Shown: piece by piece, positions 10,848 through 54,714 of the stretch
How positions within the stretch are numbered: position 1 is the first letter of the stretch
How the letters are laid out: every line of letters starts with the position of its first letter
NCBI GenBank assembly: GCA_902775355.1
Contig: CACYLY010000009.1
Span: 1-57,047 of the forward strand
Direction of reading: 5' to 3'
Length of the DNA stretch: 57,047 bases
Source of the DNA: Oscillospiraceae bacterium
GTDB lineage: Bacteria > Bacillota > Clostridia > Oscillospirales > Oscillospiraceae
The notes under the pieces: model-generated
What the model was told of the DNA's origin: nothing
Seen by the model: only the letters and a program-made list of their open reading frames with translations
The model's database searches: none
Position numbers and translations under genes: made by a program

Positions 10848-11060
10848 TCAGAGGATCTTGTTGATCTCCGTCTCGATGGCCTTGGCCTTGTCCTCGGGGA
10901 CGATCTTCTTGCTGACGACCAGATCAAAGATCTCGCCGCAGGACTTCTTGTTGAACAGCTTGATGGGGTACTTCATCAGGTTGGGGGCGTACTGCCGGAT
11001 GATCTCCACGCATTTGGGGTTGGAGAAGCAGTCTTTTACCGTCAGGCTTCTGAAATCCAT
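10848..11060 (-). CDS. Uncharacterised 70-residue protein
   Basis: Not recognised. Begins MDFRSLTVKDCFSNPKC and ends in a charged helix. The start at 11060 is chosen because AAGGAGG sits six bases upstream; a longer in-frame start has no such site. Soluble, two Cys near the N-terminus and one in the middle. Last gene of the operon, 14 bases after the preceding membrane protein. Confidence 0.7.
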   Translation of the reverse strand: MDFRSLTVKDCFSNPKCVEIIRQYAPNLMKYPIKLFNKKSCGEIFDLVVSKKIVPEDKAKAIETEINKIL

Positions 11061-11074
11061 GGGGTTCCTCCTTG

Positions 11075-12531: not shown

Positions 12532-12537
12532 GGCAAT

Positions 12538-36029: not shown

Positions 36030-36088
36030 GCGTTCATTCCTTTCTTCGCGCTGTGCGCGAACAATTGTAATTCTATCCGTTGAAGGCT

Positions 36089-36979: not shown

Positions 36980-36992
36980 CCTGCACCCTCCC

Positions 36993-37937: not shown

Positions 37938-38031
37938 GCAGGAAATCCCTCCTTAAAGTCAGATTTGCCGGGATTTGCTTGCCCTTCGATTCCGAACCGG
38001 GTCACCAGCCTGTGAACGGAAGCGCCGGACT

Positions 38032-38046
38032 ACGTGAAACGTTATA
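38032..38046. promoter_or_regulatory. LacI-type operator upstream of the fructan import operon
   Basis: ACGTGAAACGTTATA, identical (in reverse) to 43584-43598 and close to CGTGAAACGTTACAT at 43710-43724. It sits 95 bases upstream of the permease start, downstream of candidate minus-strand -10 boxes near 38055-38066. A weak TTGACG lies at 38085-38090. Confidence 0.7.
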
Positions 38047-38174
38047 TCATGAACATCATAAAAGTACCATGTCCTTTCTCGTTTCGTCAATCATTTTTTG
38101 GCTTAAAATGATAAAATAGTCCATTTTTGCCGCTTTCGCCAAAGTGGGTAGGGCTTTTTTGTCTGTTTTGCCAT

Positions 38175-38189
38175 GTGAAATCGTTTCAC
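38175..38189. promoter_or_regulatory. LacI-type operator upstream of lacI
   Basis: GTGAAATCGTTTCAC is a perfect 15-base palindrome (GTGAAA, TCG, TTTCAC) just upstream of the lacI -35 box. It is related to the CGTGAAACGTT sites and suggests autoregulation. Confidence 0.7.
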
Positions 38190-38196
38190 GATGCCC

Positions 38197-38225
38197 TTTA
38201 CAAACACCATGAAACAGCTTATACT
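38197..38225 (+). promoter_or_regulatory. lacI promoter
   Basis: TTTACA (38197-38202), 17-base spacer, TATACT (38220-38225), 47 bases before the start codon. Confidence 0.7.
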
Positions 38226-38272
38226 GTTCACAGTGTTGTTTCACCACTTTTCATGAAATTGAGGGATCGACT

Positions 38273-39265
38273 ATGTCTGACAATAAATCCGTCCCCACGA
38301 TGAAGGACGTGGCCCGGGAGGCCGGCGTCGCGCTCGGCACCGTGTCTAAGGTCGTCAACGGCATTCCCGTCGGCGAGGAATACCGACTCCGTGTGGAAGC
38401 GGCTATCGAGAAGCTCAATTACCGGGTCAGCAGCTATGCCCGCGGCCTCAGAAGCAGCAGGACCTATACCGTCGCCGTCATGGTGCCGAATCTGATCAGC
38501 CCCTTCTTCTCCAAGCTGGTCAACTGCATCAACCACGAGCTCTCTGCCCGCAAGTACCGTATGCTTTTTTATGCCACGGATTACGATCCCGCGCAGGAGC
38601 AGGAGCTGGTGCACCTGGCCGAGCAGCAGAAGGTGGACGGCATCATCTGTCTGAGCTACAATCCGCAGCTGCAGGTCTCACCGGACGTGCCGCTGGTGTC
38701 TATCGACCGCTATTTCGGCGCGCAGATCCCCTGCGTGGCCAGCGACAACTACGGCGGCGGGCGGCTGGCTGCCGAGAAGCTGGTAGAAAACGGCTGCAAA
38801 AACCTGGCTTTCCTTCGCATCGGCTCGAAGCTCACCAATGAGCCGAACAAGCGCAAGGACGGCTTCATCGCCGGGTGCGAGGCCCTGGACGTGCCCTGCA
38901 CGCTGAAGATCATCGACGACGGCACCCCTTACAGCGCCTTCTTTGACTTCCTGGAGGAGCATTTCCACGACGGGAAGCTGGATTTTGACGGCATTTTCTG
39001 CGTGACGGACTCCATGGCGCACATCATCCGCAAAGCGCTGATCCAGCGCATGGGCCTGCGGGTCCCGGAGGACGTGCAGATCATCGGCTTCGACGGCGTG
39101 CAGAGCTTCGGCGACCTGGAATACACCTGCTCGACCATCGTGCAGCCCCTGGAAGCCATCGCCGCCAACTGCGTGGAGCTGGTGCTTTCCCCGCGGGGCG
39201 AGAACGCCCCTGCTCTGATCTGCCTGCCGGTCAGCTACGCTTACGGCGGAACGACGAAGGCTTGA
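38273..39265 (+). CDS. LacI-family transcriptional regulator
   Basis: 330 residues. The N-terminal helix-turn-helix and hinge read TMKDVAREAGVALGTVSKVV, typical of LacI/GalR. The rest is a periplasmic-binding-like effector domain (VAVMVPNLISPFFSKLV; DGIICLSYN; VCSTIVQPLEAIA-like end). It lies between the two arms of the fructan locus, and the repeated CGTGAAACGTTA sites in front of both arms make it the probable local repressor, with fructose, a fructose phosphate or a fructo-oligosaccharide as inducer. GAGGG precedes the ATG. Confidence 0.92.
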   Translation: MSDNKSVPTMKDVAREAGVALGTVSKVVNGIPVGEEYRLRVEAAIEKLNYRVSSYARGLRSSRTYTVAVMVPNLISPFFSKLVNCINHELSARKYRMLFYATDYDPAQEQELVHLAEQQKVDGIICLSYNPQLQVSPDVPLVSIDRYFGAQIPCVASDNYGGGRLAAEKLVENGCKNLAFLRIGSKLTNEPNKRKDGFIAGCEALDVPCTLKIIDDGTPYSAFFDFLEEHFHDGKLDFDGIFCVTDSMAHIIRKALIQRMGLRVPEDVQIIGFDGVQSFGDLEYTCSTIVQPLEAIAANCVELVLSPRGENAPALICLPVSYAYGGTTKA

Positions 39266-39266
39266 G

Positions 39267-39959
39267 ATGGCGAGCGAATATCTGAAAATGAAAGCGCGCC
39301 AGCAGCAGCCTGCCCCGCCGCCCAGAGAGCTGACGAAGCTGGAAAAACGACGCAACTGGCTGCACTATCACTGGGGCTGGCTGTTGGCCGGGGCGGTGCT
39401 GCTTTGGATCGCGGGCAGCATGCTCTGGAACATCCTCGGCATCGGGCAGACGAAGCCGGATGTGATCGTAGCCTATGTCGGGCGCGACACGCTGCCGGAG
39501 GATCAGGCCAAAGCACTGGAAGCGGCCTTGTCCGCCTTCGCGGAGGACCGCAACGGCGACGGGAAGACGGTCGCGGAGCTGCGGCAGTACGCCACGAACC
39601 GCAGCGGCGATCTGGATACCGCGATCTACTACAACTACGCCGCCGACACCACGCTTTTGGCGGATATCACCGCGGGCGACAGCTACCTTTTCCTCGTCGA
39701 AGACCCCAAGGGCATCCATCGCAGTTATCAGATCTTTGCCCGCCCCGACGGAACGCCGCCGGAGGAAGACGACTTTGATGCCACGGACAAGGTCTTCCGC
39801 TGGGGCGACTGCCCGGTGCTCGCAGGGCTCGAAGTGGATCAGGCGGTCTTTGAAAACCTGTATCTCGGCCGCCGCTGCTTCTATGATGAGAAGCAGCTCG
39901 AAGCGCAGGCCGGCAATGAGCTGTTTTGGGAAAGACTGACGGAAGGAGCCGCACGATGA
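39267..39959 (+). CDS. Single-span membrane protein of unknown function
   Basis: 230 residues. A Lys/Arg/Pro-rich cytoplasmic N-terminus (1-35), one transmembrane helix (about 37-58), then an outer mixed alpha/beta domain with conserved-looking acidic patches (AFAEDRNGDGKTVAELRQY). Family not recognised. Starts one base after the lacI stop and overlaps the next gene by four bases, so it is in the lacI operon. Confidence 0.75.
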   Translation: MASEYLKMKARQQQPAPPPRELTKLEKRRNWLHYHWGWLLAGAVLLWIAGSMLWNILGIGQTKPDVIVAYVGRDTLPEDQAKALEAALSAFAEDRNGDGKTVAELRQYATNRSGDLDTAIYYNYAADTTLLADITAGDSYLFLVEDPKGIHRSYQIFARPDGTPPEEDDFDATDKVFRWGDCPVLAGLEVDQAVFENLYLGRRCFYDEKQLEAQAGNELFWERLTEGAAR

Positions 39960-40537
39960 AAAAGCCGATCGGCGTCTTTCTGCTTGTCCTCGCCCTCCTT
40001 CTCACTGGATGCGGAAAGCAGCATGAGGACAGACATCCGGAATGGGATGAAAGCTGGACGCGCTTCGAAGATCTGATGGCGATCGAAGCACCGGAGGACT
40101 TCTATCTTGGGGAGTACAACGACGCGCTGGCGGTCAACGCCATTTGGTACGCGGTATGGAACTGCGGCACGGATCCGCAGGCGATTACGAATGCCGAGGG
40201 TCAGGAGGCCTCCGTTTATGACGCGCAGATCTTCCTGGTGCTGAAGGGCTTCGGCAGCGAAGAAGATGCCAAAGCCAGCGTGGACGACTGGATCGAGCGC
40301 GAGGCGCAGGGCTACGAAACCGGGGAATTCAAGGAGCTTTCCGCTGCCGGACAGATCTTTTCGACCTGGCTGCTGCTTGCCGCGAAAGCGGAGAACCCTT
40401 ATTCCCACGGCGCGGCGGCCTTCGCCGTGCGCGGCAAGCTTGCGATCAGCGCGGAGCTTCTCTGCACGGAGAGCTTCGGGGGCGATCCGGAGGTGATCCT
40501 GGAGCAGTTTCTGAACGGTTTTCATTACGGAGAATAG
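39956..40537 (+). CDS. Uncharacterised lipoprotein in the lacI operon
   Basis: 193 residues with a signal ending LLLTGC. The outer domain is acidic and alpha/beta in character (DLMAIEAPEDFYLGEYNDAL). The start at 39956 overlaps the previous stop (ATGA), which is why a more upstream ATG is rejected. Not recognised; with its neighbours it may form a small membrane complex. Confidence 0.75.
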   Translation: MKKPIGVFLLVLALLLTGCGKQHEDRHPEWDESWTRFEDLMAIEAPEDFYLGEYNDALAVNAIWYAVWNCGTDPQAITNAEGQEASVYDAQIFLVLKGFGSEEDAKASVDDWIEREAQGYETGEFKELSAAGQIFSTWLLLAAKAENPYSHGAAAFAVRGKLAISAELLCTESFGGDPEVILEQFLNGFHYGE

Positions 40538-40546
40538 GAGCAGAGC

Positions 40547-41320
40547 ATGGGTCTTTTTTTTGGAGGCGACGAAGAACGTTTCATCCCCGGTGTGAGAAAG
40601 GGCGGATTCGCCCGTTATAAAGAGATTTTGGAGGCCAACTGGAAGATTTTCTTCCTGGTCGGCTTCATAGCGCTGGCTTTTCATATCCCGTTGGCCGCAG
40701 GGCTCGTCTATGCCGTGGGCGCTAAAAGTTCGCTGGCTGTGATCGGCGCGGGCCTCATCGGCGGCGCGATCGCCGGACCGGGCTACGCCGGGCTGGCCGA
40801 TCTGATCATGCGCCGTCTGCGGGACGACAAAGGTGACTGGACGGTCTGCTGGAAGCGTTCTTTCCGGCAGAATTGGAAGGCCTCCCTGCTGCCCGGCGCG
40901 GTGCAGGGGCTTTTTCTCGCGCTGATCGTGTTCGCCGGCGCGCTGATCTTCTGGGGCGCGGCGCCGATCTCAATCGGGACGCTGCTGCTTCTGGCGCTCT
41001 CGATCCTCTTGGGGACCATGGTGCTGACGGCCTGGTGGCCGCAAGTGGTGACCTTTGAGCAGAAGGCACCGCAGCAGGTGAAAAACGCGGTGCTGTTCAG
41101 CGTTTTCCACTTCGGCAAGGTCCTGCTCTCCGCCTTGCTGCAGATCGTGTGGTGGTCGGTGCTGGCGCTCTTCATGCCCTGGACGGCCTTTGTCGTGCCT
41201 TTCATCGGGTTGTGGTACATCCTGTTCGTGGCGCTGCATCTCATTTACCCGGCGCTGGACGCAGATTTCCACATTGAGGAGCAGATCGAAGAGAAATTTC
41301 CGGGGAGGCTGGGCGATTGA
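40547..41320 (+). CDS. YesL-like (DUF624) polytopic membrane protein
   Basis: 257 residues, about six transmembrane helices. The pattern GPGYAGLADLIMRRLRDDKGDW followed by SFRQNWKASLLPG resembles DUF624/YesL proteins, which are frequently encoded beside ABC sugar transporters and glycosidases. GGAG precedes the ATG. Function unknown. Confidence 0.65.
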   Translation: MGLFFGGDEERFIPGVRKGGFARYKEILEANWKIFFLVGFIALAFHIPLAAGLVYAVGAKSSLAVIGAGLIGGAIAGPGYAGLADLIMRRLRDDKGDWTVCWKRSFRQNWKASLLPGAVQGLFLALIVFAGALIFWGAAPISIGTLLLLALSILLGTMVLTAWWPQVVTFEQKAPQQVKNAVLFSVFHFGKVLLSALLQIVWWSVLALFMPWTAFVVPFIGLWYILFVALHLIYPALDADFHIEEQIEEKFPGRLGD

Positions 41321-41847
41321 AAACAATCCTGGCGGAAAACCGCTTCATACTGACAAAAACGCTGTTTTATGAGGGCATGCGACGCGTATCCGCAGCTTCC
41401 TACGGGAAGACCGTAAAGAAGCTCCTGATCGGCGTTGCGCTGCTGTGGCTTGCCCTGAGCGTCTGGACCGTCCGGCGCAGCGGCAGCGTCTCCTATGCGC
41501 TGATGGAGCTTGCCGTGCTGGCTGCGGTCTCGCTCTGGCTGGCTGTGCTGCTGCCGCGCGGCAGGGCAAGGCGAGCCTGGAAGACAATGGAGGACAACGG
41601 CTCTGCCGAGGCCGAGCGCATCACGGACTTTTTTATCGGGCATCTGGAGGTCAATACCGGTCTGCGGACGGTCTCGCTGGCCTATGGGGAGATTGCGGAG
41701 ATCCTGCACACGGACAGCCTTCTGCTCCTCATCTCTCGGGAAAAAACCGGCATCATGCTGAAAAAAGACGCTTTTACCCGCGGGACGGAAGAAACCGTGC
41801 TGCAGCTGATAGAAGAAGCACAAAAGGAGGACGCGACCCATGACTGA
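41317..41847 (+). CDS. YcxB-like membrane protein
   Basis: 176 residues. Two hydrophobic helices (about 35-70) are followed by a C-terminal domain of YcxB type (VSLAYGEIAEILHTDSLLLLISREK). A TTG start at 41317 is supported by GGGGAGG eight bases upstream and by overlap with the preceding stop. Function unknown. Confidence 0.7.
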   Translation: MKTILAENRFILTKTLFYEGMRRVSAASYGKTVKKLLIGVALLWLALSVWTVRRSGSVSYALMELAVLAAVSLWLAVLLPRGRARRAWKTMEDNGSAEAERITDFFIGHLEVNTGLRTVSLAYGEIAEILHTDSLLLLISREKTGIMLKKDAFTRGTEETVLQLIEEAQKEDATHD

Positions 41848-42778
41848 TATCACCGCCATCGGCGAAATCCTGATCGATCTGACCCAATCGGGACTGACGG
41901 AGCAGGGCATCCCCCGCTTTGACGCCAATCCCGGCGGCGCGCCGGCCAATCTCGCTGTGGCCGCTTCCAGGCTCGGTGCGAAGACCGCCTTCATTGGCCG
42001 GGTGGGGCGCGACAGCTACGGCGGTTTCCTGCGCCGTACGCTGGAACAGAACCGCGTGGATGTGACGGGCCTTTCCGTCGATCCGACCCAGCACACGACG
42101 CTGGCCATTGTATCCCTGGACGAAAGAGGCGAGCGCAGCTTCAGCTTTTACCGAGATCCCAGCGCTGACGTCAATCTGCGTTTCGAGGACGTACCGGCGG
42201 AGTTACTGGAAAACACTTGCGTTCTGCATTTCGGCTCTGTGAGCCTCACAGCCGAGCCCAGCCGCAGCGCGACGCTGCGCGCGGTACAAACGGCAAAGGC
42301 ACATGGCGTACTCATCAGCTATGACCCCAATTACCGCGCCAGCCTCTGGCCGGACGAGGAGACCGCTGTCCGACAGATGCGCGATCCGCTGCCGCTGGTC
42401 GACATTCTGAAGATCTCCGACGAGGAGCTGCCCCTGCTGACCGGACTGACCGATCCCGAGCGCGGCAGCGCACGTCTTGCCGAAAAAGGGATCCGTCTCA
42501 TTCTGGTGACGCTCGGCGCGAACGGAGCATTCTATCGCTTCGGAGGCAGAATCGGGCATGTGCCCGGCGTCCGGGTCACGGTCGGCGATACCAACGGCGC
42601 GGGCGACACTTTCTTCGGTGCGGCGCTCTCGCAGCTTGTTCGTCTGAAAAGTTTGGATACGCTCATGGAAGAGGAACTGGAGCGCATCCTGCGCTTTGCC
42701 AACAGGGCCGCCTCGATCACGACCAGCCGTCACGGCGCCATCCCCGCCATGCCGACGCTGGAGGAAATGGCAGAGTAA
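41840..42778 (+). CDS. PfkB-family carbohydrate kinase, probable fructokinase
   Basis: 312 residues, ribokinase/PfkB fold. The N-terminal GEILIDLTQSG and NPGGAPANLAVAASRLG are sugar-binding signatures, and the C-terminal TNGAGDTFFGAAL holds the catalytic Asp256 in GAGD (253-256). In this locus it most plausibly phosphorylates the fructose released by GH32. Overlaps the preceding gene by eight bases. Confidence 0.92.
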   Translation: MTDITAIGEILIDLTQSGLTEQGIPRFDANPGGAPANLAVAASRLGAKTAFIGRVGRDSYGGFLRRTLEQNRVDVTGLSVDPTQHTTLAIVSLDERGERSFSFYRDPSADVNLRFEDVPAELLENTCVLHFGSVSLTAEPSRSATLRAVQTAKAHGVLISYDPNYRASLWPDEETAVRQMRDPLPLVDILKISDEELPLLTGLTDPERGSARLAEKGIRLILVTLGANGAFYRFGGRIGHVPGVRVTVGDTNGAGDTFFGAALSQLVRLKSLDTLMEEELERILRFANRAASITTSRHGAIPAMPTLEEMAE

Positions 42779-42793
42779 ACGAACCGGATATCG

Positions 42794-42829
42794 GAAACCC
42801 CGCAGCGTGAACATACGCCGCGGGGTTTC
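42794..42829 (+). terminator. Terminator after the kinase gene
   Basis: GAAACCCCGC (42794-42803) pairs with 42820-42829, with an inner GCG/CGC pair. The T-run after it is weak. Confidence 0.7.
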
Positions 42830-42840
42830 ATTGGACCTTT

Positions 42841-43570
42841 AGGGGCAATAAACCCCCGGTTCTACCGGGGGAATTAAAAAGCTTTAGCAAAAGCAACCTC
42901 CCGTGATAGAGTGGTAAAGGTTTGGCGACCGCGTTACCACAAGAACACAGGAGGTTACAAACGAATGGGAAAGAACGACCTAAATCACAACGCACACTCA
43001 ACATGGAGATTGCAGTACCACATAGTATTTGCACCGAAGTTCCGGAGAAAAGTGATCTACGGACAGCTAAAGGCAGACATAGGAGTAATACTGCGGAAAC
43101 TGTGCGAGGAGAAAGGTGTGGAAATCATTGAGGCAGAGGCGTGCCCGGATCATATCCATATGTTAGTGAGCATCCCACCGCAGTTGAGTGTAGCACAATT
43201 TGTGGGATTCCTCAAGGGGAAGAGTACGTTGATGATTTTTGATCGACACGCAAATCTGAAATACAAATACGGGAGCCGTCATTTCTGGTGCAGGGGATAC
43301 TACGTGGATACGGTAGGGAAGAACGAGAAAATGATAGCAGAATATATCCGCACGCAGATGCAGGAAGATGAATTGATGGATCAAGTGACAATGAAGGAAT
43401 TTGTTGACCCGTTTACGGGTCGCAAGAATAAGTAGGCATAAAAACAGGCCGCTTTAGCGGCGGCCTGTAAAGGTAATGCGGGAGCCAAATTTCAATGCCC
43501 CTTAAGGGGTTCTGCCTGTAATTTGCCCTTCTAGGGCTCATGCAAACCACCACTTCAGTGGTGGTTATGA
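42841..43570 (+). mobile_element. IS200/IS605-family insertion sequence (transposase only)
   Basis: One Y1 transposase gene flanked by subterminal hairpins: CCCCCGGT/ACCGGGGG at 42853-42871 on the left and AACCACCACT/AGTGGTGGTT at 43545-43566 on the right. No tnpB, so IS200-like. The ends given are approximate, since this family makes no target duplication or inverted terminal repeats. It sits in the gap between the kinase gene and the second arm of the fructan locus. Confidence 0.8.
42965..43435 (+). CDS. tnpA: IS200-type Y1 transposase TnpA
   Basis: 156 residues, single-strand transposase. The HUH pair is His63 and His65 (PDHIHML) and the catalytic tyrosine is Tyr127 (IAEYIRTQ), the same position as in the best-studied relative. 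STWRLQYHIVFAPKFRRKV is the family N-terminus. GGAGG precedes the start at 42965. Intact, so probably active. Confidence 0.95.
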   Translation: MGKNDLNHNAHSTWRLQYHIVFAPKFRRKVIYGQLKADIGVILRKLCEEKGVEIIEAEACPDHIHMLVSIPPQLSVAQFVGFLKGKSTLMIFDRHANLKYKYGSRHFWCRGYYVDTVGKNEKMIAEYIRTQMQEDELMDQVTMKEFVDPFTGRKNK

Positions 43571-43583
43571 TTTGTTGTTTCGT

Positions 43584-43598
43584 ATAACGTTTCACGTT
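43584..43598. promoter_or_regulatory. LacI-type operator, distal site of the second arm
   Basis: TATAACGTTTCACGT, the exact reverse complement of 38032-38046. About 70 bases upstream of the -35 box and about 112 bases from the proximal site 43710-43724; paired sites could allow looping. Confidence 0.65.
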
Positions 43599-43667
43599 GA
43601 ATTGCACAAATAGCAATAAGCGTTTTACCCCAAAATGACGGTTTTTGTGGATTCATCCAATTATTTG

Positions 43668-43696
43668 TTGACATTGAACACAATGAATACTATAGT
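43668..43696 (+). promoter_or_regulatory. Promoter of the fructan-binding / GH32 arm
   Basis: TTGACA (43668-43673), 17-base spacer, TATAGT (43691-43696), with an operator starting 14 bases after the -10 box and the first gene at 43800. Confidence 0.8.
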
Positions 43697-43709
43697 AAAG
43701 CTGTAACAC

Positions 43710-43724
43710 CGTGAAACGTTACAT
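43710..43724. promoter_or_regulatory. LacI-type operator, proximal site of the second arm
   Basis: CGTGAAACGTTACAT, sharing CGTGAAACGTTA with 38032-38046 and the reverse of 43584-43598. Placed just after the predicted transcription start, so a bound repressor would block elongation or initiation. Confidence 0.7.
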
Positions 43725-43799
43725 GAACAAATCACCCAAGCAAACCAAAGTCCCAAGCAAACCACCAAATCATGAATAGGAAAACGAAAGGGAGCTAAG

Positions 43800-45986
43800 A
43801 TGAAAAAGAGTTTTGTCAAACTGCTTTCCGCACTCCTGATCCTCAGCATGGTCCTTGGCCTTGCGGCCTGCGGCGACGCATCCAACGGCGGCGGCGACAC
43901 TGCGGCGGCCGTAGCTGAAGACATCGTCAACGGGGATTTTGAGGAAGTCAGCGAGGGCAAATGGGTCGGCTGGACCCGTCACGACGCGGCTTTCAACTTC
44001 CGCGGCGTGGTCAACAACGAGAAAATCAAGGGCGCGCCCATGGAAAAAAGCGGCGAGTACTACTTTGCCGGCTCCGAGGGCGGCAACCCCGCCATGCGCG
44101 GCACCCTGACCTCCGATGTGTTCAAGCTCGGGGGCAACGGCTTCATCACCTTCAAGATGGGCGGCGGCAAGGACACTGAGAAGTGCTATGTGGACTTCTT
44201 CGAAGAGGGAAACGACACCCCCATTGCCCACGTGGTCAACGCTGACTGCGATGGCCTGTTCATCACCGAGCACCTGATCACCAAGGCGGTCGACCTCTCC
44301 GCCTACGTCGGCAAGAACATCTACATCGTTGCCACCGACAATGACGATGGCAGCGACTTCTCCTGGCTGAACCTGGACGCCTTCAAGGTCTGCACCACCG
44401 AGGACGAGGTCAAGGCGGCCGAGGCCGAGTACGCACGCCAGATCGAGGAGTTCGGTCCGCGTCCCTTTGAAGAGGACGAGACCTCCAACACGATCCAAAA
44501 CGGCGGCTTTGAGAACGGCGACCTGTCCGGCTGGATGATCCTGGAGGGCACGGCGCTCAGCGGCGCTGCCATTGTGCCCACTTCCCAGTACTACTGGACC
44601 GACCGCGCTGTCTACGGCGAGGGCGAGTACTATCTGGACGGCAGCAACAACGGCGCCATCCAGGAGAACCTGACCGGCGCCATCCGCTCCACCAAGTTTA
44701 CCTTGGGCGGCGACGGCTTCATTACCTTCATGATGGGCTCCGGCAACGGCGGCTCTTATGTGGCGCTGTGCGACGGCAACACCGACGAAGAGCTCATCAA
44801 GCAGGAGAACATCTACTTCTCCGACCCGGCCCTTGCTCTGACGCTGCTGCGCTTCTACATGGACGCCAGCGAGTATATCGGCCGCGTTGTGTACATCAAG
44901 GTCGTGGACGCCAACGACGGCTCCAACGGCGGCTTTGCCTTCATCAACGTGGACGACTTCCGTGTCTCCCTGACGAAGGACGAGGTCGCGGCGCTGGAGG
45001 TCGAGCAGATGGAGAAAATCCAGAACGAGACCTATACCTCCGCCTCCTACGACGATCTGACCAGCCTGCGCAATTATTACAGCAACTATCCCTATCCCGT
45101 GCCTCTCCAGTCCCTGACCTTCACGGCCTACGCCCAGAACCAGGTCGTTGACTGCGGCACCGTGGATCTGACTGCCTTCGTGGCCGAGGCCGCCGCGGCT
45201 TTCGGCTCCGAGACCGTTCCCGTCGCCATCACCAAGGTCAGCTTCAACGGCAATGACAGCACTGAGGGCTTCGAGGCCTTCGATCTGAGCGAGCCCGGCT
45301 TCTACACCGTGACCTACGGCGCCAAGCGCGGCGACAAGACCGCCGAGGCCAGCTTCACCGTGGTGGCCATGGCCGACAACAGCACCATCGCCAACGGCGG
45401 CTTCGAGAGCGGCAACCTGGCCGGCTGGACCGTCGAGAGCGGCAACTGGGCCCTGGTCGAGGGTCAGCTGCCCGGCGTCATCAGCGCCCAGAACTACTGG
45501 GGCGAGGAGCTGCCCTACAACCAGGCCGGCGACTTCCATCTGGACGGCTGGAACACCGGCATCGGCGAGCCGGAGGGCTGGGCCCTGCGCTCCACCAACT
45601 TCGTGCTGGGCGGCTCCGGCTTCATCTCTGTCCGCATGGGCGGAAACGCCGCCTCGGTCCATGTCTATCAGGCTGACGGCACCGAGATCGGTTACTACAA
45701 GCAGACCCGCTTCTGCGACGAGAACTTCCCCTCCGTGGGCGCCGGCGGCTCCTGGGCCGACATGGGCACCTATGTCATCGACCTGAGCGATCACATCGGC
45801 GAGGAGCTTTACATCGTCCTGGAGGATGAGGTGATCGACGCAGGCTGGGCTCACGCTTTCTTTGATGAGATCGTGACCTTCTACGAGACCGCGCCCGACT
45901 ACGAGAATCTGGCCGACACCGTGAAAGACGGCGGAAGCGACGAGATGATCGACATCCCCTGGCAGCTGGCTGCAAACCTGAAGTAA
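43800..45986 (+). CDS. Surface lipoprotein with three carbohydrate-binding-like repeats
   Basis: 728 residues. The signal ends in LAAC (lipid Cys24). Three copies of a ~155-165-residue beta-sandwich-like domain lie at about 43-197, 232-390 and 531-697. Each begins (V/Q/A)NG(D/G)FE and GW, has a central LGGxGFI(T/S)F/V-MGG motif and ends with a Gly-rich aromatic strand. An Ig-like domain (about 438-524, AFDLSEPGFYTVTYGAKRG) lies before copy 3. The context (GH32 enzymes, LacI sites) points to fructan binding, perhaps CBM66-like; family membership is inference. AAAGGGAG precedes the ATG at 43800. Confidence 0.8.
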   Translation: MKKSFVKLLSALLILSMVLGLAACGDASNGGGDTAAAVAEDIVNGDFEEVSEGKWVGWTRHDAAFNFRGVVNNEKIKGAPMEKSGEYYFAGSEGGNPAMRGTLTSDVFKLGGNGFITFKMGGGKDTEKCYVDFFEEGNDTPIAHVVNADCDGLFITEHLITKAVDLSAYVGKNIYIVATDNDDGSDFSWLNLDAFKVCTTEDEVKAAEAEYARQIEEFGPRPFEEDETSNTIQNGGFENGDLSGWMILEGTALSGAAIVPTSQYYWTDRAVYGEGEYYLDGSNNGAIQENLTGAIRSTKFTLGGDGFITFMMGSGNGGSYVALCDGNTDEELIKQENIYFSDPALALTLLRFYMDASEYIGRVVYIKVVDANDGSNGGFAFINVDDFRVSLTKDEVAALEVEQMEKIQNETYTSASYDDLTSLRNYYSNYPYPVPLQSLTFTAYAQNQVVDCGTVDLTAFVAEAAAAFGSETVPVAITKVSFNGNDSTEGFEAFDLSEPGFYTVTYGAKRGDKTAEASFTVVAMADNSTIANGGFESGNLAGWTVESGNWALVEGQLPGVISAQNYWGEELPYNQAGDFHLDGWNTGIGEPEGWALRSTNFVLGGSGFISVRMGGNAASVHVYQADGTEIGYYKQTRFCDENFPSVGAGGSWADMGTYVIDLSDHIGEELYIVLEDEVIDAGWAHAFFDEIVTFYETAPDYENLADTVKDGGSDEMIDIPWQLAANLK

Positions 45987-46053
45987 GTACCTTTACGGGG
46001 CAGGGGAAGGAGCTTCCCCTGCCCCAACATACTTTGAAAGGGGCGTTCTTTCC

Positions 46054-48216
46054 TTGAAAAAACTTCTTTCTCTTCTGTTGGCGATCCTTGTTCTCTGCGC
46101 GTTTTCCGCGGCTGCTTATGCCGACGGGGACGACTTCAACATCATCAACGGCGATTTCGAGACCGGCGATCTGACCGGCTGGACCGTGCCGGACAACTGG
46201 GCCCGGGACGAGAACGGCAAGCCTCTGGGCGTGATTTCCGACGCCAGCTACTGGGCGGAGGAGATGCCCTATAACCAGGGCGGCAATTACCATCTGGACG
46301 GCTGGAACAACGGCATTCCCGAAAACGAGACCTGGGCCATCCAGTCCAGCTCCTTTACGCTGGGCGGCTCCGGCTTCATCACCCTCCGCATGGGCGGCAA
46401 CTCCGCGGCGGTGCGCATCTACAAGGCCGACGACAACAGTCTGATCGGCTATTACACCCAGACCCGCTTCCACGACGCGGGCTTCCCCAGCCTGAAAAAC
46501 GGCGGCTCCTGGGCGGACATGGGCACCTACGTCATCGATCTGCACGAGCATCTGGGCGAAAAGCTCTATGTCGAGCTGCGGGACGAAAAGGTCAACGCCT
46601 GGGCCCAGGCCTTTTTCGACGAGGTCGTCACCTATTACGAGACCGCGCCGGATTTTGAGAGCCTCTTCGATACCGTGAAGGACGGCGCTTCCGAGGACAC
46701 GGTGGACATCCCCTGGACCCTGGCGGAGAACAAGGCCGATGAGATCCTGAATCCGCCGCCTCCTCCCCCCGCGCCGGTGGATCCCTGGTATGTTCCGGAC
46801 GCGCCCAATCCGTTCTCCGTCGTCAACGGCGGCTTTGAGACCGGCACCCTGGCCGGCTGGACGCCCGTGTCCGGCAACTGGGCCAAGGACCAGTTCGGCC
46901 ATCCCGTGGGCGTCAGCGGCGACGCCACCTATTGGGCGGAGCAGATGCCCTATAACCAGGCCGGCAACTATCACCTGGACGGCTGGAAAAACGGCATCGC
47001 CGAAAACGACACCTGGGCGATCCGCTCCTCTACCTTTACCTTGGGCGGCTCCGGCATGATGAGCGTGCGCATGGGCGGCAACGCCGCCGCCGTGAAGGTC
47101 TACAAGGCCGACGGCACGCTGATCGGCCATTTCAAGCAGAGCCGCTTCAACGACGCAAACTTCCCCTCCGTGGGAGCCGGCGGTTCCTGGGCGGACATGG
47201 GCACTTATGTGATGGACATGTCCGAGTACCTGGGGGAGGAGCTGTACATCGAGCTCTGTGACGAGCCCGCCGCCGGCTGGGCCCAGGCCTTCTTCGACGA
47301 GGTCGTGACCTATTACGAGACAGCGCCCGACGTGTCCGGCTCTGCCGACACCGTGAAGGACGGCGGCTCCGACGAACAGGTCCAGATCCCCTGGACCATG
47401 GCCGAGAATTCACAGAAGCCCGCCGAGGAACCGGAGGATCCGGGCGAGTACAACATCGTCAACCCCGGCTTCGAGACCGGCGATCTGACCGGCTGGACCC
47501 CCAGCTCCGGCAACTGGGGCGACGATCCCCACGGCGTGATCTCCGCGGAAACCTACTGGGGAGAGCAGATGCCCTATAACCAGGCCGGCGACTACCACCT
47601 GGACGGCTGGGCCACCGGCATCCCCGAGGGGGAGACCTGGTCGCTCCGCTCTACGTCCTTTACCCTGGGCGGCTGCGGCTTTATGAGTGTGCGCATGGGC
47701 GGCAACGCCGCCGCCGTCCGGATCTACACCGAGGACGACACGCTGGTGGGCTATTTCAAGCAGAACCGCTTCCATGACGCAGGCTTCCCCCACCTGTCCG
47801 AGGGCGGCTCCTGGGCTGACATGGGCACCTATGTGATGGACATGAGCGCGTATCTTGGCCAGGTGCTGGTCATCGAACTGTGCGATGAGCCTGCCGCCGG
47901 CTGGGCCCAGGCCTTCTTCGACGAGGTCGTGACGTATTATGAAGAGGCGCTGGACTGGACGAGCCAGTACGACACCGTGAAGGACGGAGCCAGCGATCAG
48001 ACCGTGGACATCCCCTGGACCGTCGCGGAAAACCTGGCGCCTGCCGCCCAGGGCAACTCCGGCACGGAGCCCGCGGAGACCCTTGCCGCGGAGACGGAGG
48101 AGCCTGCCGAAGCGGAATCCGCCGAGACCCCGAGCCCGGAGGAGAGCGCCGAAGCGGAAGCCGGCGAGACCCCGATTCCGGAGGAGACCGCCGCCGGGAA
48201 CGACGTCGCGCCTTGA
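46054..48216 (+). CDS. Secreted protein with three tandem carbohydrate-binding-like domains
   Basis: 720 residues. A classical signal peptide (to about residue 23, AAAYA) without a lipobox. Three close copies of the same domain as in the preceding protein lie at 29-196, 256-424 and 468-630. Shared landmarks are FETGDLTGW, MPYNQAG(N/D)YHLDGW, FTLGGSGF, RMGGNAAAV, GGSWADMGTYV and WAQAFFDEVVTYYE. Each copy is followed by a linker DTVKDG-(D/Q)IPWT-AEN. The C-terminal 60 residues are a Glu/Ala/Pro/Thr-rich tail with no sorting motif. The start codon is TTG at 46054, behind AAAGGGG. It has no catalytic domain. Confidence 0.78.
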   Translation: MKKLLSLLLAILVLCAFSAAAYADGDDFNIINGDFETGDLTGWTVPDNWARDENGKPLGVISDASYWAEEMPYNQGGNYHLDGWNNGIPENETWAIQSSSFTLGGSGFITLRMGGNSAAVRIYKADDNSLIGYYTQTRFHDAGFPSLKNGGSWADMGTYVIDLHEHLGEKLYVELRDEKVNAWAQAFFDEVVTYYETAPDFESLFDTVKDGASEDTVDIPWTLAENKADEILNPPPPPPAPVDPWYVPDAPNPFSVVNGGFETGTLAGWTPVSGNWAKDQFGHPVGVSGDATYWAEQMPYNQAGNYHLDGWKNGIAENDTWAIRSSTFTLGGSGMMSVRMGGNAAAVKVYKADGTLIGHFKQSRFNDANFPSVGAGGSWADMGTYVMDMSEYLGEELYIELCDEPAAGWAQAFFDEVVTYYETAPDVSGSADTVKDGGSDEQVQIPWTMAENSQKPAEEPEDPGEYNIVNPGFETGDLTGWTPSSGNWGDDPHGVISAETYWGEQMPYNQAGDYHLDGWATGIPEGETWSLRSTSFTLGGCGFMSVRMGGNAAAVRIYTEDDTLVGYFKQNRFHDAGFPHLSEGGSWADMGTYVMDMSAYLGQVLVIELCDEPAAGWAQAFFDEVVTYYEEALDWTSQYDTVKDGASDQTVDIPWTVAENLAPAAQGNSGTEPAETLAAETEEPAEAESAETPSPEESAEAEAGETPIPEETAAGNDVAP

Positions 48217-48266
48217 CCCGCTGCATCCCTGAAGCGATCCCCGCAGGGATCCGATAGGAGGAAAAT

Positions 48267-50645
48267 ATGAAAAAGAAACAATGGCTTTCCCTGCTGCTTC
48301 TGGTCTGCCTGGCGCTGAGTCTTGCCGCCTGCGGAGGAGGCGGCGCGTCGGAACCCCACAAGGACGCGCTGCTGCTACACCTGCGCTTTGACGAGGGCCA
48401 GGGCCTGACCGTCAAGGATTCGGCCGGGAAGCTCCCGGACACCGCCTTGAATTACGAACTGGCCCACGCGGCCTATCAGCTGGAGGACCAGGATCCGCAG
48501 TGGCGCGCAAGCGGCATCGACGGCGGCTCTCTGCTGCTGGACGGAAGCTCCACCTACCTCAGCTATAACCGCAACGACATCACCGTTGAGGGCAGCGCCC
48601 TGACCGTTTCGGTCTGGATCGCGCCGCGCATGTTCGAGTGGGACGATCCCAACGCCGCCGACAACGGCACGGACGCGCCCACCGGCATCGTCAGCCAGTC
48701 CAACAAGGAGCAGAAGCAGGGCTTCCTGCTGGGCTATGAGCGCTTTGGCCGCCTGACCTTCCAGGTGGGCACCGGGGACGAATGGCTCACGGTCTGGTCC
48801 AACGGCGACAATCTGCAGCGCTACAAGTGGAACTACGTCACGGCCACTTTTGACGCGGAGGCTGGCGAAATGTGCCTGTACCTGAACGGCGAGCTGATCT
48901 CCTCCCGCTCCGTGCCCAAGGACGCCGCCATCGCCCCGGCCAAACGCGCCCCGCTGCTGGTGGGACGCAACGGCGAGGCCGAGCGGCTGACGGCGGGCTA
49001 CCTCAACGTGGCCAGCGGCCTGATCGACGAGCTGAAGCTCTATTCCGCCGCCCTCAGCGAGAAGGAAATCGCCGACTACTATAACAGCGTCTCTGTGCCA
49101 GAGATCGCCTTCGAGGATATCTGGCTGCAGAACATCCTGGGCGGCGACTTCACCCGGCCCCAGTTCCACGGCGGACCTTACCAGTTCTGGATGAACGAGC
49201 CCCACGCGCCGGTATACTACAACGGCATGTACCATCTCTTCTTCCAGGAGAACATGACCGGCTCCTACTGGCGCAATATCTGCTGGGGGCATCTGGTGAG
49301 CACCGACATGGTGAACTGGAAGCCCGTGAAGGAGGCCATCGTGCCCATGGAGGACAGCGTGGTTCCCGACGGCGTGTGGTCCGGCGGCGCGACTCTGGAC
49401 AAAAACGGCGTCCCGCTGCTGTTCTTCACCGCTGGCAACGACAGCTTCCGTGAGGTGGAAGGCCTCATTTCCAACCAGAATATCGGCGTGGCCTGGCCCG
49501 CGGATCTGAGCGATCCGGAGCTGACCGAATGGATCGTCGCGGATGAGCTGGCGCTGATCCAGAAGCAGGGTCAGGGCCGTCCCGGCGAGTTCCGGGATCC
49601 CCATATCTGGAAAGAGGGGGGCACCTGGTGCATGCTGATCTGCTCCGGCAGCGCCAAGACCAAGGGCGGCACCGCCCTGCTCTACACGACGGACACCCTG
49701 GAGCTGAAGGACGGGGAAGTCGACATGGACTGGCAGTACAGAGGACCGGTCTATGAGATGGAGAACCAGTCCGCCCTCTACGGCACCAGCTGGGAGCTGC
49801 CCATCATCCTGCCCGTGAGCAATGAGGCGGGCACGGTCACCAAGTACTTCTTCGAGATCTCCCCGGCTCCCGCCAGCATTGCCGACAACAAGGTCTATTA
49901 CTGGCTGGGAGACTTCGACCTGGAGACCGGCAAGTTCACCCCGGACGAGGCCTTCCGGGGCGAGCCCCATCTGCTGGACTACGGCGCCAATGTCTTCACC
50001 GGACCGAGCTGCATCGTCGATCCCGTCAGCGAGAACATCTATATGTTCTCCATCATGCAGGATCAGCGGGGCGCCGCCGAGCAGGGCGCTTCCGGCTGGG
50101 CGCACACCGTCGGTCTGGCCCGGCGCATCTGGCTGAATGACGAGGGCACCGACCTCTGCATCGAGCCCATTGAGGCGCTGCACACGCTCGAGGGACAGGT
50201 GCTCATCGACGAGAGCAACCTCAGCCTGGACGCCGCCAACGCGAAGCTGGCGGACGTGAAGGAGGATATGCTCTATATCCGCATGGACGTGGATGTGAGC
50301 AAGGCCGAGTCCTTCGGCATCACCATGCTGCAGGGCGGCCGCTGGGATGAGACCAGTCTCAGCTACAACGCGGCCGAGGGGCTGATCCAGGGCCGCACCG
50401 AGAACAAGGGCGAGGGCTGCAAGGCCAAGGCCGTCTCTGGCCCGCTGACGAACGGGGACGATATCCTGTCGGTGGAGATCTATCTGGACCGCTCGCTGGT
50501 GGAGGCCTTCTTTGAAGACTCCAAGGTCATCAGCATCCGCGCCTATCCCGAGGACCACAATTCTCAGGCCATCAGCCTCTTTGCCGAGGGTGAGGTCACG
50601 ATCGTCGGCATCTATGTGGCGACGATGGAATCGATTTTCGACTAA
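48267..50645 (+). CDS. Surface GH32 lipoprotein with N-terminal LamG-like domain and WMNEPH motif
   Basis: 792 residues. Lipid Cys22 (LSLAAC). A concanavalin/LamG-like domain (about 33-275) precedes a GH32 propeller (about 300-640) and a beta-sandwich (about 645-790). The usual WMNDPNG is WMNEPHA here, so the nucleophile Asp is replaced by Glu311; RDP (443-445) is intact, and Glu510 in TSWELP is the likely acid/base (usual EC replaced by EL). The protein may be an active fructanase of a divergent subgroup or a binding protein derived from one. It is lipid-anchored, so it acts outside the cell. GGAGG precedes the ATG. Confidence 0.88.
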   Translation: MKKKQWLSLLLLVCLALSLAACGGGGASEPHKDALLLHLRFDEGQGLTVKDSAGKLPDTALNYELAHAAYQLEDQDPQWRASGIDGGSLLLDGSSTYLSYNRNDITVEGSALTVSVWIAPRMFEWDDPNAADNGTDAPTGIVSQSNKEQKQGFLLGYERFGRLTFQVGTGDEWLTVWSNGDNLQRYKWNYVTATFDAEAGEMCLYLNGELISSRSVPKDAAIAPAKRAPLLVGRNGEAERLTAGYLNVASGLIDELKLYSAALSEKEIADYYNSVSVPEIAFEDIWLQNILGGDFTRPQFHGGPYQFWMNEPHAPVYYNGMYHLFFQENMTGSYWRNICWGHLVSTDMVNWKPVKEAIVPMEDSVVPDGVWSGGATLDKNGVPLLFFTAGNDSFREVEGLISNQNIGVAWPADLSDPELTEWIVADELALIQKQGQGRPGEFRDPHIWKEGGTWCMLICSGSAKTKGGTALLYTTDTLELKDGEVDMDWQYRGPVYEMENQSALYGTSWELPIILPVSNEAGTVTKYFFEISPAPASIADNKVYYWLGDFDLETGKFTPDEAFRGEPHLLDYGANVFTGPSCIVDPVSENIYMFSIMQDQRGAAEQGASGWAHTVGLARRIWLNDEGTDLCIEPIEALHTLEGQVLIDESNLSLDAANAKLADVKEDMLYIRMDVDVSKAESFGITMLQGGRWDETSLSYNAAEGLIQGRTENKGEGCKAKAVSGPLTNGDDILSVEIYLDRSLVEAFFEDSKVISIRAYPEDHNSQAISLFAEGEVTIVGIYVATMESIFD

Positions 50646-50823
50646 CACTAATTCAATTTCCATGACCTCCGGCCACTCCACTTTTCTGGTCGGCGGGACG
50701 TGAAAAAAGGAGGATAAAACCCGCTTGCTCGCGGTGCGGCAGCGTGGAGACCTGTCGTAAAGCACGAGGCACAACCCGTGCGAGGGCACATCCGGCGGAG
50801 GCCATGTGTCCGGAGCAAATTAT
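50646..50823 (+). promoter_or_regulatory. 178-base structured leader before the ATPase gene
   Basis: No gene. A GGAGG at 50709 has no start behind it. Possible stems are GCACG/CGTGC (about 50762-50781) and GGGCACAT/ATGTGTCC (about 50784-50812), the latter ending twelve bases before the ATG, in a region with only a weak ribosome site (GGAGC). Could modulate translation; no known riboswitch class is recognised. Confidence 0.4.
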
Positions 50824-52005
50824 ATGGCGACTGTTCAACTGAAAAACATCAAGAAAGTGTACCCCTTTGTCAGCGGCGAACAAAAGAAAAAAAGCAAGAA
50901 AAAGGCGGATGAGCCCGAGAAGAAAAAGGTCAATCTCCAGATCACCGATGAGGGCGTTGTGGCTGTCCAGGCCTTCAATCTGGATATTGCCGATAAGGAA
51001 TTCATCGTGTTGGTCGGCCCTTCCGGCTGCGGCAAGTCCACCACCCTGCGAATGGTCGCGGGTCTTGAAGAGATCTCCGACGGTGAGCTCGTAATCGACG
51101 GCAAGGTCGTCAACGATATCGCCCCGAAGGATCGCGACATTGCAATGGTCTTCCAGAACTACGCGCTGTACCCCCACATGACCGTGTATGAGAACATGGC
51201 CTTCTCTCTGAAGCTGCGCCATACGCCCAAGGACATCATCAACCAGAAGGTCCGCGAGGCCGCCGAGATCCTGGACATCACCCAGTATCTGGACCGCAAG
51301 CCGAAGGCTCTGTCCGGCGGCCAGCGGCAGCGCGTGGCCATCGGCCGTGCCATTGTCCGCGCCCCCAAGGTCATGCTGATGGACGAGCCTCTCAGCAACC
51401 TGGATGCCAAGCTGAGAAACGAGATGCGCGCCGAGATCATCAAGCTCCGCGAGCGTATCGATACCACCTTTATCTACGTCACCCACGACCAGACCGAAGC
51501 CATGACCCTGGGCGACCGGATCGTCATCATGAAGGACGGCTACATCCAGCAGATCGGCACTCCCCAGGAGGTCTTCAACCATCCCGCGAACCTGTTCGTG
51601 GCCGGCTTCATCGGCATGCCCGTCATGAACTTCTTCGACGCCCAACTCATCCGCGAGGGCAGCAAGTTCTTCGTGGAACTCGCCGGTTACAAGGTAGAAC
51701 TCGACCCCGAGAAGGAAGCGCGGCTGCTTGCCAACGACGTGCAGTCTCAGCCGATTACCCTGGGCGTACGTCCCGAGCACACTGATCTGGTGCAGGACGG
51801 CGTGAAGGCTCGCGTGGACGTGAGCGAGATGATGGGCTCCTCCGTGCATCTGCATCTCACTGCCGAGGGCCGTGACGTTATCGTCATCGTCCCCACGGTC
51901 GGCCTGAAGGAGAACTTCCGCATGGGCGACACCGTCCAGTTCGGCTTCAATGGCAATGTCGCGCACGTGTTCAGCAAGGAGAACGACAAAAACCTGGAAT
52001 TCTAA
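50824..52005 (+). CDS. msmX: Carbohydrate ABC transporter ATPase (MsmX/UgpC type)
   Basis: 393 residues. Walker [10 protein letters not shown] (65-73), signature LSGGQ (163-167), Walker B MLMDEP (184-189) and D-loop SNLDAKLR, then a C-terminal regulatory OB-like domain (VRPEHTDLV). A Lys-rich insert of about 28 residues (19-46) sits before the Walker region. Single MsmX-type ATPases serve several sugar permease pairs; here it ends the fructan locus and is the likely engine of the permeases at 36089-37937. The start at 50824 fits [12 protein letters not shown]. Confidence 0.92.
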
Positions 52006-52984: not shown

Positions 52985-53010
52985 TGGGAGCGGGCGTATT
53001 ACCGCTCCCA
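52985..53010 (-). terminator. mobA terminator overlapping its stop codon
   Basis: TGGGAGCGG (52985-52993) pairs with CCGCTCCCA (53002-53010), followed by TTTT on the minus strand. The stop codon of mobA lies in the loop. Confidence 0.7.
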
Positions 53011-54714
53011 TCCACGATCTTTTTTCCTGTGCTGTAGAACCGGCTCCCGGTTTTCCCTTTGCCGTTCCTGTTCCTTCCGATGTACCCGTTCCCGGATGGC
53101 ATGAGGGCCTTCCTCGTTCAGCATCCGGGAAGCATCTTTCTGCGCGCCGATCATTGCCCAGAAATCATATTTGTCCCCATAGGTCTCCCTGACCTTGCTC
53201 TGGACAGAGGCTTCCTTCTCCGGGCGGATGGCGAGCTGCGCCATGGCAAGCTCGTCGGGATCGAAATCCGCCGCCTGGGCTTTCGGCTCCTCGTATTCCG
53301 AAAGGGCCGTGTTCAGCTCGGCGATGTACCTCTGCTCCTGCTGCTCCAGCTTTTTCAGGTTGGCCTCTATCGCCGCCACATCCTTGCGGACAGCGGAGAG
53401 CGGCGTATCCGACGCATATTCCATGGAAGCGAGAAGCACTGTCTTTTCGGACCGAAGCTCCTCCAGATCCTCCGTCAGCTCCGCAATGCGGCGGGACAGG
53501 TCACGGTGCTTCAGGATATTGATAGCAGGCGTCGCTTTCTTCTCGGCAAGCAGCGCACTCCGATCCTTGCTCTTTTCCTTGATTTCCCCGGCGATCCTGA
53601 CGTATTCCTCCAGCTTGTCGTTCATAATATTCAGGTTCTTTGGGAGCCGGTTCTTGCCTCCGGTGATATAGCGGAGCTGGTACAGGAACAGGATCATCTT
53701 TCCCCGCACGGATTCCATGGCTTCGGCAAGCGACGGGATGGAGTTCTTGACCGCCTGCATCAGCTTCTTCACCTGGGCCTTGAGCTCCCGGAGAAGGGCG
53801 TTGTCCCGCTTAATCTGCCGGTTCAGCTCGCAGCGGTCAGAGACGATCCCTTTCTTCTCCAGCGCGCGGGCGATCACGCCCTCATGGACAGTGGGCTGTT
53901 CGTCAAGGCCACGGGCGGCGTTGCTCCGGTGGTCCACACGCTCGTCAAAGCCGTACCGATCAAGAGAACGATTGACGGCGTTAGCCCAGGCCTCCCGCCA
54001 GAGGACAAGCTGCTCGTCGCTGTTCCAGCGTTCGGAGATCGGGTTTCGCCTGCCGTATTTGGTGCTTTTCGGATGCTTGGAGGCGCGTTCATAGCCTTTG
54101 GCCTCCGCCTCCGAGGGCGCCAGATATACCTTCTTTCTCCCGACCTTGTACGGGTACTGCTTTTCCCATCCCTCAGCCTGCGCCTCCTTGAACTCGACGG
54201 CGGTAAAGCCGCGCTCCTCGTCGTTGCGAACACAGAGATATTCCTTTTCAGTCTTGTACTGCCAGCTACCGTCCGGGTTCAGGGGCCTCACGGTCAGCAG
54301 GATATGGGCGTGGGGATTGTGGCCGGGCGGGTCCGGGTCGTGGATCGCCACGTCGGCGCACATGCCGTCAGACACGGAGCTGCCCTGAATGAAATCCGAA
54401 AGCAGCTCCTTCCATTGCTCCGGGCTCAGCTCAACGGGCAGGGCGACGACGAACTCACGGGCCAGTCTGCTGTCTTTTGTTTTCTCGGCTTCCTCCACGG
54501 CGTTCCAGAGAACGGCGCGGTCTTGCCACTCCGCAGGCGCACAGTCAGGGAGAAAGACCTGCTCCCAGACAAGCCCCTGCTTGCGGGTATAGTCATGCTG
54601 TACGCCGTCGTAGTCGTTGTAGATGGCGGAGCAGCTCATATAGGCTGAGGCTGCGCAGGCAGATCGGCCTGTGCCACGGCTCACGACCTTCGCCTCCAAG
54701 TGGTAGATTGCCAA
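52999..54714 (-). CDS. mobA: MobA/MobL-family relaxase (MobQ type)
   Basis: 571 residues; nicks and pilots the element's DNA in conjugal mobilisation. The N-terminus MAIYHLEAKVVSR and Tyr25 match the RSF1010 MobA pattern, where Tyr25 attacks the nic site. The metal-binding histidines are in GHNPHAHILL (His132, 135, 137). The relaxase domain ends near 260; the rest is long coiled coil. The start is TTG at 54714, backed by GGAGGTGA. It lies directly beside a MobQ-like oriT. Confidence 0.94.
   Translation of the reverse strand: MAIYHLEAKVVSRGTGRSACAASAYMSCSAIYNDYDGVQHDYTRKQGLVWEQVFLPDCAPAEWQDRAVLWNAVEEAEKTKDSRLAREFVVALPVELSPEQWKELLSDFIQGSSVSDGMCADVAIHDPDPPGHNPHAHILLTVRPLNPDGSWQYKTEKEYLCVRNDEERGFTAVEFKEAQAEGWEKQYPYKVGRKKVYLAPSEAEAKGYERASKHPKSTKYGRRNPISERWNSDEQLVLWREAWANAVNRSLDRYGFDERVDHRSNAARGLDEQPTVHEGVIARALEKKGIVSDRCELNRQIKRDNALLRELKAQVKKLMQAVKNSIPSLAEAMESVRGKMILFLYQLRYITGGKNRLPKNLNIMNDKLEEYVRIAGEIKEKSKDRSALLAEKKATPAINILKHRDLSRRIAELTEDLEELRSEKTVLLASMEYASDTPLSAVRKDVAAIEANLKKLEQQEQRYIAELNTALSEYEEPKAQAADFDPDELAMAQLAIRPEKEASVQSKVRETYGDKYDFWAMIGAQKDASRMLNEEGPHAIRERVHRKEQERQRENREPVLQHRKKDRGWER

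Follow-up and report, generated by a model that had tools for sequence, protein, structure and literature searches.

Two adjacent genes on the forward (+) strand of a 57,047-nucleotide stretch of an Oscillospiraceae bacterium genome (contig CACYLY010000009.1; hereafter the window) encode a lipoprotein, A, and a secreted protein, B, each with three copies of one domain (A1 to A3 and B1 to B3). We consider A and B to be non-catalytic fructan-binding proteins of CBM38-type jelly rolls, with A holding fructan for the glycoside hydrolase family 32 (GH32) lipoprotein encoded downstream, and assign this reading a probability of roughly three in four. It draws on homology to CBM38-annotated repeats, gene order, conservation, a pattern of paired sites and a predicted fold, and the fructan specificity proposed for A and B comes from similarity and genomic context.

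The identity of the domain was indicated by the GH32 enzyme of another locus, L191, in which the repeats begin at residues 42, 220, 408 and 1311 and GH32N spans residues 808-1125. L191 is from one of three matching genomes among 392 in the order of the genome of L051 (labelled a Roseburia MAG, metagenome-assembled genome), which is itself one of the three. For a Defluviitalea raffinosedens protein, the available portion of PMC7355431 gives dbCAN2 assignments of CBM38 to residues 44-189, 221-367, 409-527 and 1313-1448, and of GH32 to residues 808-1121. The four repeat starts in L191 lie within 1-2 residues of the published ones and the GH32 regions both start at residue 808, while the published repeats end 14-21 residues before those that we delimited. 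Because of this match in position, together with homology to the annotated repeats, we identify the domain, on sequence grounds, with the CBM38 of dbCAN2; a reading made from the sequence alone (the sequence-only reading) had called it probably new. The enzyme of L192, from another genome, has a near-identical layout (repeats at 38, 216, 407 and 1311), and therefore the repeat positions do not fix the species. B2 was 41% identical to the first L191 repeat (E 1e-44). Against the first repeat of L168, another GH32 enzyme, B2 showed 42% identity (E 1e-39) and A2 33% (E 9e-22). In L168 and L169, two repeats lie between the signal peptide and a LamG domain, and the protein measures 1333 amino acids (aa) if counted from a start that a good ribosome site precedes, which is presumably also the length of the Paenibacillus macerans CFTase. 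Compared by layout, these proteins agreed with what is expected for that CFTase from the accessible part of PMC10076258. The same part describes CBM38 as residues 32-389 of the CFTase, comprising two beta-sandwiches, with binding of levan and inulin at low micromolar strength.

Searches against family models did not yield this assignment. No Pfam or NCBIfam model exceeded its cut-off in A or B, and matches of the two proteins in Pfam, NCBIfam and the PDB sequences were either below cut-off or at chance level. CBM_4_9 (PF02018) scored 16.9 bits in A and 15.0 bits in B against a Pfam cut-off of 25.9, and matched four of 73 single domains at E ≤0.1 (best E 0.014). The NTTRR-F1 match to A and B covers only the NGGFETG stretch, and the single domains matched unrelated families weakly, the best being FlaF_Ig-like (1/73, E 0.00016). 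The 73 domains, also used as an alignment and profile, comprised the six of the window and 67 of 264 collected domains, thinned at 72% identity. No clear relative was found in the PDB sequences by direct or profile searches; the CFTase-like enzyme L166 had 31 PDB matches in its GH32 region and none in its repeats. Viral contigs scanned with B2 yielded no relative either. CBM66, which the sequence-only reading had named as a family to compare, was ruled out on sequence, as the 73-domain profile gave seven PDB sequences to E 10 and none was a CBM66 chain. CBM66 was also not among the best 50 fold matches listed, a result which carries no weight as evidence.

Structure prediction agreed with a carbohydrate-binding module. 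The B2 model (pLDDT 97.5) was a jelly roll resembling CBM4/16/61, a fold to which it was assigned by comparison with solved carbohydrate-binding modules (VIA-align on Foldseek's top 1000), and its best matches were galactan and porphyran binders. In the long type of domain, defined below, an extra C-terminal strand pair was predicted, and in the model of A helices come after A1 and A2. The data also point to one jelly roll of ~165-170 residues as the CBM38 unit, in place of the two-domain stretch first described.

Analyses of the six copies confirmed that homologous domains occur in two adjacent, non-enzyme surface proteins, as first proposed. All 15 pairs were related by BLASTP (A1-B2 weakest, E 3e-6; the other 14 at E ≤4e-9), so that the homology was not due to chance. 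They divide better into two short copies (A1 and A2) and four long ones (A3 and B1-B3) than by protein. The long copies are 63-70% identical to each other (63-66% for A3 against the B copies); the two short copies show 34% identity between themselves and 27-34% with the long ones. The landmarks FETGDLTGW, FTLGGSGF, RMGGNAA and GGSWADMGTY, described for all copies, hold for the long type (some of them altered) and do not occur as such in A1 and A2; the conserved aromatic stretch of B2 is WAEQMPYNQAGNYHLDGW. DTVKDG..IPWT.AEN, which had been taken for a linker, is predicted to lie within the long-type fold (block mean pLDDT 96-98, strands at residues 177-181 and 188-192).

The sequence-only reading had also described the B copies as near-identical through recent duplication or gene conversion. 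Their identities to one another fall short of this, at 67-70% in protein (BLASTP) and 66-78% in DNA, compared as 300-nucleotide stretches. Moreover, B3 shares 83% identity with the one domain of the B-like protein in locus L032, but 66-70% with B1 and B2. In a tree of 74 long-type domains, B3 and the L032 domain paired with an ultrafast bootstrap of 100, and B2 and then B1 branched outside the pair (supports 89 and 95). This grouping contradicts a recent event and indicates that the triplication in B predates the split of these two lineages; the L032 protein has either lost copies since or been assembled with fewer.

To place A and B in context, we studied 76 named loci, which came from one motif scan (100 candidate stretches, 77 confirmed) and were found by the domain, not by GH32; most are labelled as animal-gut MAGs, so that their frequencies are not representative. 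Over its full length A was 62-83% identical to 39 chosen relatives, drawn from 56 three-domain proteins with the distant L084 and L086 excluded. A simple lipobox pattern occurred in 52 of the 56, that of L040 appearing spurious. Of 51 testable A-type genes, 48 had a gene for a LamG-GH32 protein no more than 0.9 kb downstream (allowed gap -150 to 1200 nucleotides), with a median gap of 67 nucleotides; the testable cases exclude three of the 56 genes that run off their contig and two at contig edges. The largest gap, 896 nucleotides, was in L032, where a B-like gene intervenes as B does in the window. The three misses were L040, in which the GH32 gene is directly upstream instead, L084 and L086. 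In some MAGs the A-type gene is split by a frameshift or stop (L075, L110, L046 and L088), through real loss or assembly error.

A GH32 match was present in 67 of the 76 loci. At the stricter score of >150 bits the count was 66, with GH32 adjacent to or fused with the domain in 63 of the 76. Six of the nine loci without a match (L056, L082, L088, L099, L104 and L106) stop within the domain gene or shortly beyond it; the other three (L097, L098 and L103) are not explained in this way, and in the genome of L097 (G206) GH32 genes lie amid further domain copies on another contig. PfkB and LacI genes were each found in 50 of 76 loci and the two permease types in 50 and 42, many loci being cut by contig ends.

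The domain also occurs fused to GH32. In the family of Paenibacillus terricola (Paenibacillaceae), 85 of 394 genomes matched the 73-domain profile, and in all 14 stretches hand-picked from these genomes the domain and GH32 occur in one protein. Five of them (L166-L169 and L175) have the order repeat(s), weak repeat, LamG, GH32, repeat, and the others have repeats between or after the GH32 parts; P. terricola itself has one protein with four repeats, LamG, GH32, a further repeat and S-layer anchors. The list from this family also has small domain-only frames (L113, 287 aa). With these 14 fusions, those of L191 and L192, the CBM38 positions and the adjacency in 48 of 51 cases, the proposal that fructan-binding domains in non-catalytic surface proteins may serve a GH32 lipoprotein was supported. 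On plasmids NZ_CP109966 (Catenovulum adriaticum, a gammaproteobacterium) and NZ_CP156675 (Pseudalkalibacillus hwajinpoensis), GH32 proteins matched L166 over 85% and 74% of its length, and the four best records of this plasmid search are annotated merely as "GH32 C-terminal domain-containing protein".

The features of the window are collected in Table 1. Importer, regulator, kinase, A, B, GH32 lipoprotein and ATPase genes together span 34401-52005. In the window's genome (87.5% complete), searching revealed no copies of the domain beyond the six of A and B, and GH32 matched four times, twice within the window. The Ig-like region of A had no family match. Searching the PDB with the LamG domain turned up nothing of use (best E 0.011).

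Table 1. Features of the fructan locus in the window, with the basis on which each was assigned.
Feature	Position	Strand	Basis or remark
Second GH32 enzyme, 498 aa	32802-34298	-	Probably intracellular; no signal by eye
ABC importer, whole	34401-37937	-	
Solute-binding lipoprotein of the importer (likely)	34401-36029	-	Location and a lipobox seen by eye; nothing above the Pfam cut-off
Two importer permeases	36089-37000, 36993-37937	-	Pfam/NCBIfam
Operator-like site GTGAAACGTT, between permease and regulator genes	38034-38043	+	
Partner operator-like site	38180-38189		One mismatch to GTGAAACGTT
LacI-family regulator	38273-39265	+	Pfam/NCBIfam
PfkB kinase	41840-42778	+	Top NCBIfam model fructokinase, below cut-off
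IS200-type transposase gene (PF01797), between kinase gene and A	42911-43435	+	Pfam
Operator-like site, exact GTGAAACGTT	43586-43595	-	
Promoter-like sequence before A	43668-43696	+	TTGACA, 17 nucleotides, TATAGT
Operator-like site, exact GTGAAACGTT	43711-43720	+	
Lipoprotein A, 728 aa	43800-45986	+	Signal with lipobox LAAC (by eye), A1, A2, Ig-like region, A3
Domain A1, CBM38-type, short	43920-44429	+	BLASTP among the six copies
Domain A2, CBM38-type, short	44487-45014	+	
Immunoglobulin-like (Ig-like) region between A2 and A3	45105-45374 (approximate)	+	Predicted strands, residues 439-524, by eye
Domain A3, CBM38-type, long	45381-45983	+	BLASTP and tree
Secreted protein B, 720 aa	46054-48216	+	TTG start, Sec-type signal (by eye), B1-B3, acidic tail
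Domain B1, CBM38-type, long	46138-46737	+	BLASTP
Domain B2, CBM38-type, long	46816-47415	+	BLASTP and structure model
Domain B3, CBM38-type, long	47452-48039	+	BLASTP and tree
Acidic Pro/Glu/Ala-rich tail of B	48040-48213	+	Translated sequence
GH32 lipoprotein	48267-50645	+	Laminin_G_3 (LamG, ~48540-49073), GH32N (49167-50168), GH32C
ABC transporter ATPase (UgpC subfamily)	50806-52005	+	Pfam/NCBIfam

The two exact sites at 43586 and 43711 are in opposite orientations, one on each side of the promoter-like sequence of A, and the sites at 38034 and 38180 form a similarly opposed pair. We take the GTGAAACGTT sites to be LacI-type operators. The window has five sites at ≤1 mismatch against 1.46 expected, a number reached in one of 100 shuffles. 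In the 390 nucleotides around the start of 49 relatives, at least one site was found in 42 and at least two in 33, against ~0.1 site expected at the density with which sites occur in those loci; a promoter pattern of the form seen at A precedes 44 of the 49, a figure that carries no chance control. Through these pairs, the LacI-family regulator of the locus probably acts on both the importer/regulator and the A promoters, and so would control both halves of the locus; the spacing of the paired sites could suit looping. The promoter-like sequence of A, downstream of the IS200-type transposase gene, appears intact, and in L032, L033 and L036 the gap at the transposase position is <300 nucleotides. 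At the right end of the window, a MobA/MobL-like relaxase gene and a nucleotidyltransferase/regulator pair were recognized by eye (52999-54714 and 55430-56792, both on the reverse strand), which suggests a mobile element beside the fructan locus.

The mechanism that we propose would begin with A anchored by its lipid at the membrane, near the LamG-GH32 lipoprotein, where its three domains would hold a fructan chain, inulin or levan, at the surface. The GH32 lipoprotein would cut the held chain to fructose or short chains, the ABC importer would take up the released pieces, and the second GH32 enzyme and the fructokinase-like kinase would process them after import. Secreted B, with three more copies of the A3-type domain, is probably a multivalent fructan catcher that would raise the local substrate and provide extra valency, either in the medium or within the cell wall. 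A close counterpart of B was seen in one locus only (L032, among the matches listed for the 76 named loci), and B is therefore best read as a lineage-specific addition, not a core part. Enzyme-free arrays do occur elsewhere: in L108 (genome G071) a protein of at least 2022 aa (7424-13489, ending at the contig end) has eight domain copies and a tail of VPDIEE-type repeats, encoded on the strand opposite to the A and GH32 genes of that locus, and more distant extra enzyme-free domain proteins occur in L084, L086, L087, L091 and L093-L096. We speculate, with rather more doubt than confidence, that gut Clostridia possess a Gram-positive "fructan utilisome". In it, a conserved three-module CBM38 lipoprotein would supply polymer to an adjacent LamG-GH32 lipoprotein and to an ABC importer, and certain lineages would have gained secreted arrays made purely of CBM38, such as the three copies of B and the eight or more of L108, that act as diffusible or matrix-like traps for fructan.

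Several observations weigh against the fructan-binding reading. A1 and A2 are distant from the long type, as given above, and inspection by eye of B, its tail included, found neither a lipobox nor an LPXTG motif, leaving it with no visible anchor; the scarcity of B counterparts belongs here as well. The same fold occurs at nearly equal Z in non-carbohydrate domains (cyclases, MAM and insecticidal-protein domains). The domain is also rare in close relatives: 5 of the 200 family genomes and 4 of the 391 class genomes have it, both counts including the genome of the window, and it was absent from the three other genomes of the genus examined. In addition, among distant members the one in L097 is fused to a GH125 alpha-mannosidase and those in L098 and L103 occur in proteins that also carry CBM_X2, and genome G205 has four domain matches and no GH32, so that the domain family is not fructan-only. 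The members linked to GH125 or CBM_X2 are possibly a mannoside version of the same arrangement. Importer-like genes were noted by eye near the distant members in L097, L098, L103, L193 and L194.

These distant members, the many ligands served by jelly rolls, and the galactan and porphyran binders among the best fold matches would suit domains that bind a non-fructan glycan, for example of host, plant or microbial origin, and mediate adhesion to food particles or mucus, the proximity of GH32 reflecting operon history. We consider this unlikely given the presence of a LamG-GH32 gene at most 0.9 kb downstream of 48 of 51 A-type genes, the GH32 fusion in all 14 chosen stretches, and the inulin and levan binding of the position-matched family CBM38. 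It is less probable still that the domains are structural or protein-protein modules through which A, binding no sugar itself, docks to the importer or to the GH32 lipoprotein, because the same domains are present in B, with no visible anchor, and the nearest homologues that have an annotation are carbohydrate modules belonging to fructan enzymes; what would fit docking is the LamG domain that the GH32 lipoprotein itself carries, the helices after A1 and A2 in the model, and the occurrence of the fold in MAM and other domains. Least probable of all, in our view, is that A assists the ABC importer by binding oligosaccharides and is not a polymer binder. A is a lipoprotein, has the same pattern of paired sites as the importer genes, and in L101 and L051 has importer genes just upstream on the same strand; however, the likely solute-binding lipoprotein of the window already adjoins the permeases, and the constant neighbour of A-type genes is the LamG-GH32 gene.

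To our knowledge, the holding of fructan before it is cut is far less worked out in Gram-positive gut bacteria than in Bacteroides. The levan surface glycan-binding protein (SGBP) BT1761 of Bacteroides thetaiotaomicron is, like A, a non-catalytic lipoprotein alongside a GH32 lipoprotein, and has Ig-like domains according to the portion of PMC7618045 available. It differs in its levan-binding domain, which combines a central sheet with helices and for which the accessible part of PMC10076258 gives DUF4960 as a related levan binder, and in its outer membrane location and SusCD partner. A and B had no DUF4960 or SusE/F Pfam match to E 1, and the locus has ABC permeases, SusC/D genes not having been searched for separately. 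The best reading is that A may work like the Bacteroides levan SGBPs without being a member of that group. Sas20 of Ruminococcus bromii is likewise a glycan-binding surface protein of a Gram-positive gut bacterium, acting, in the part of PMC9112005 available, on starch and in the amylosome, not on fructan. CBM66 of the Bacillus subtilis SacC is, in what was accessible of PMC6560043, a levan-binding beta-sandwich on a GH32 enzyme. It has no sequence match to the window domains. We take the LamG domain of the GH32 lipoprotein to be the better comparison for CBM66. The closest likeness is to CBM38 of the P. macerans CFTase and the D. raffinosedens GH32 protein, with the same repeat at the same positions in L191 and 41-42% identity of B2 to GH32-fused repeats; the known modules are in enzymes, whereas those of the window are in enzyme-free proteins, three per protein, and their long type has the predicted extra C-terminal strand pair. 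The CBM38 module is already known; less ordinary is its conserved enzyme-free setting, no description of which was found in the literature searched, where the CBM38 papers were available in part. A conserved enzyme-free CBM38 lipoprotein beside a GH32 gene is a clear, testable candidate for fructan capture in Gram-positive bacteria.
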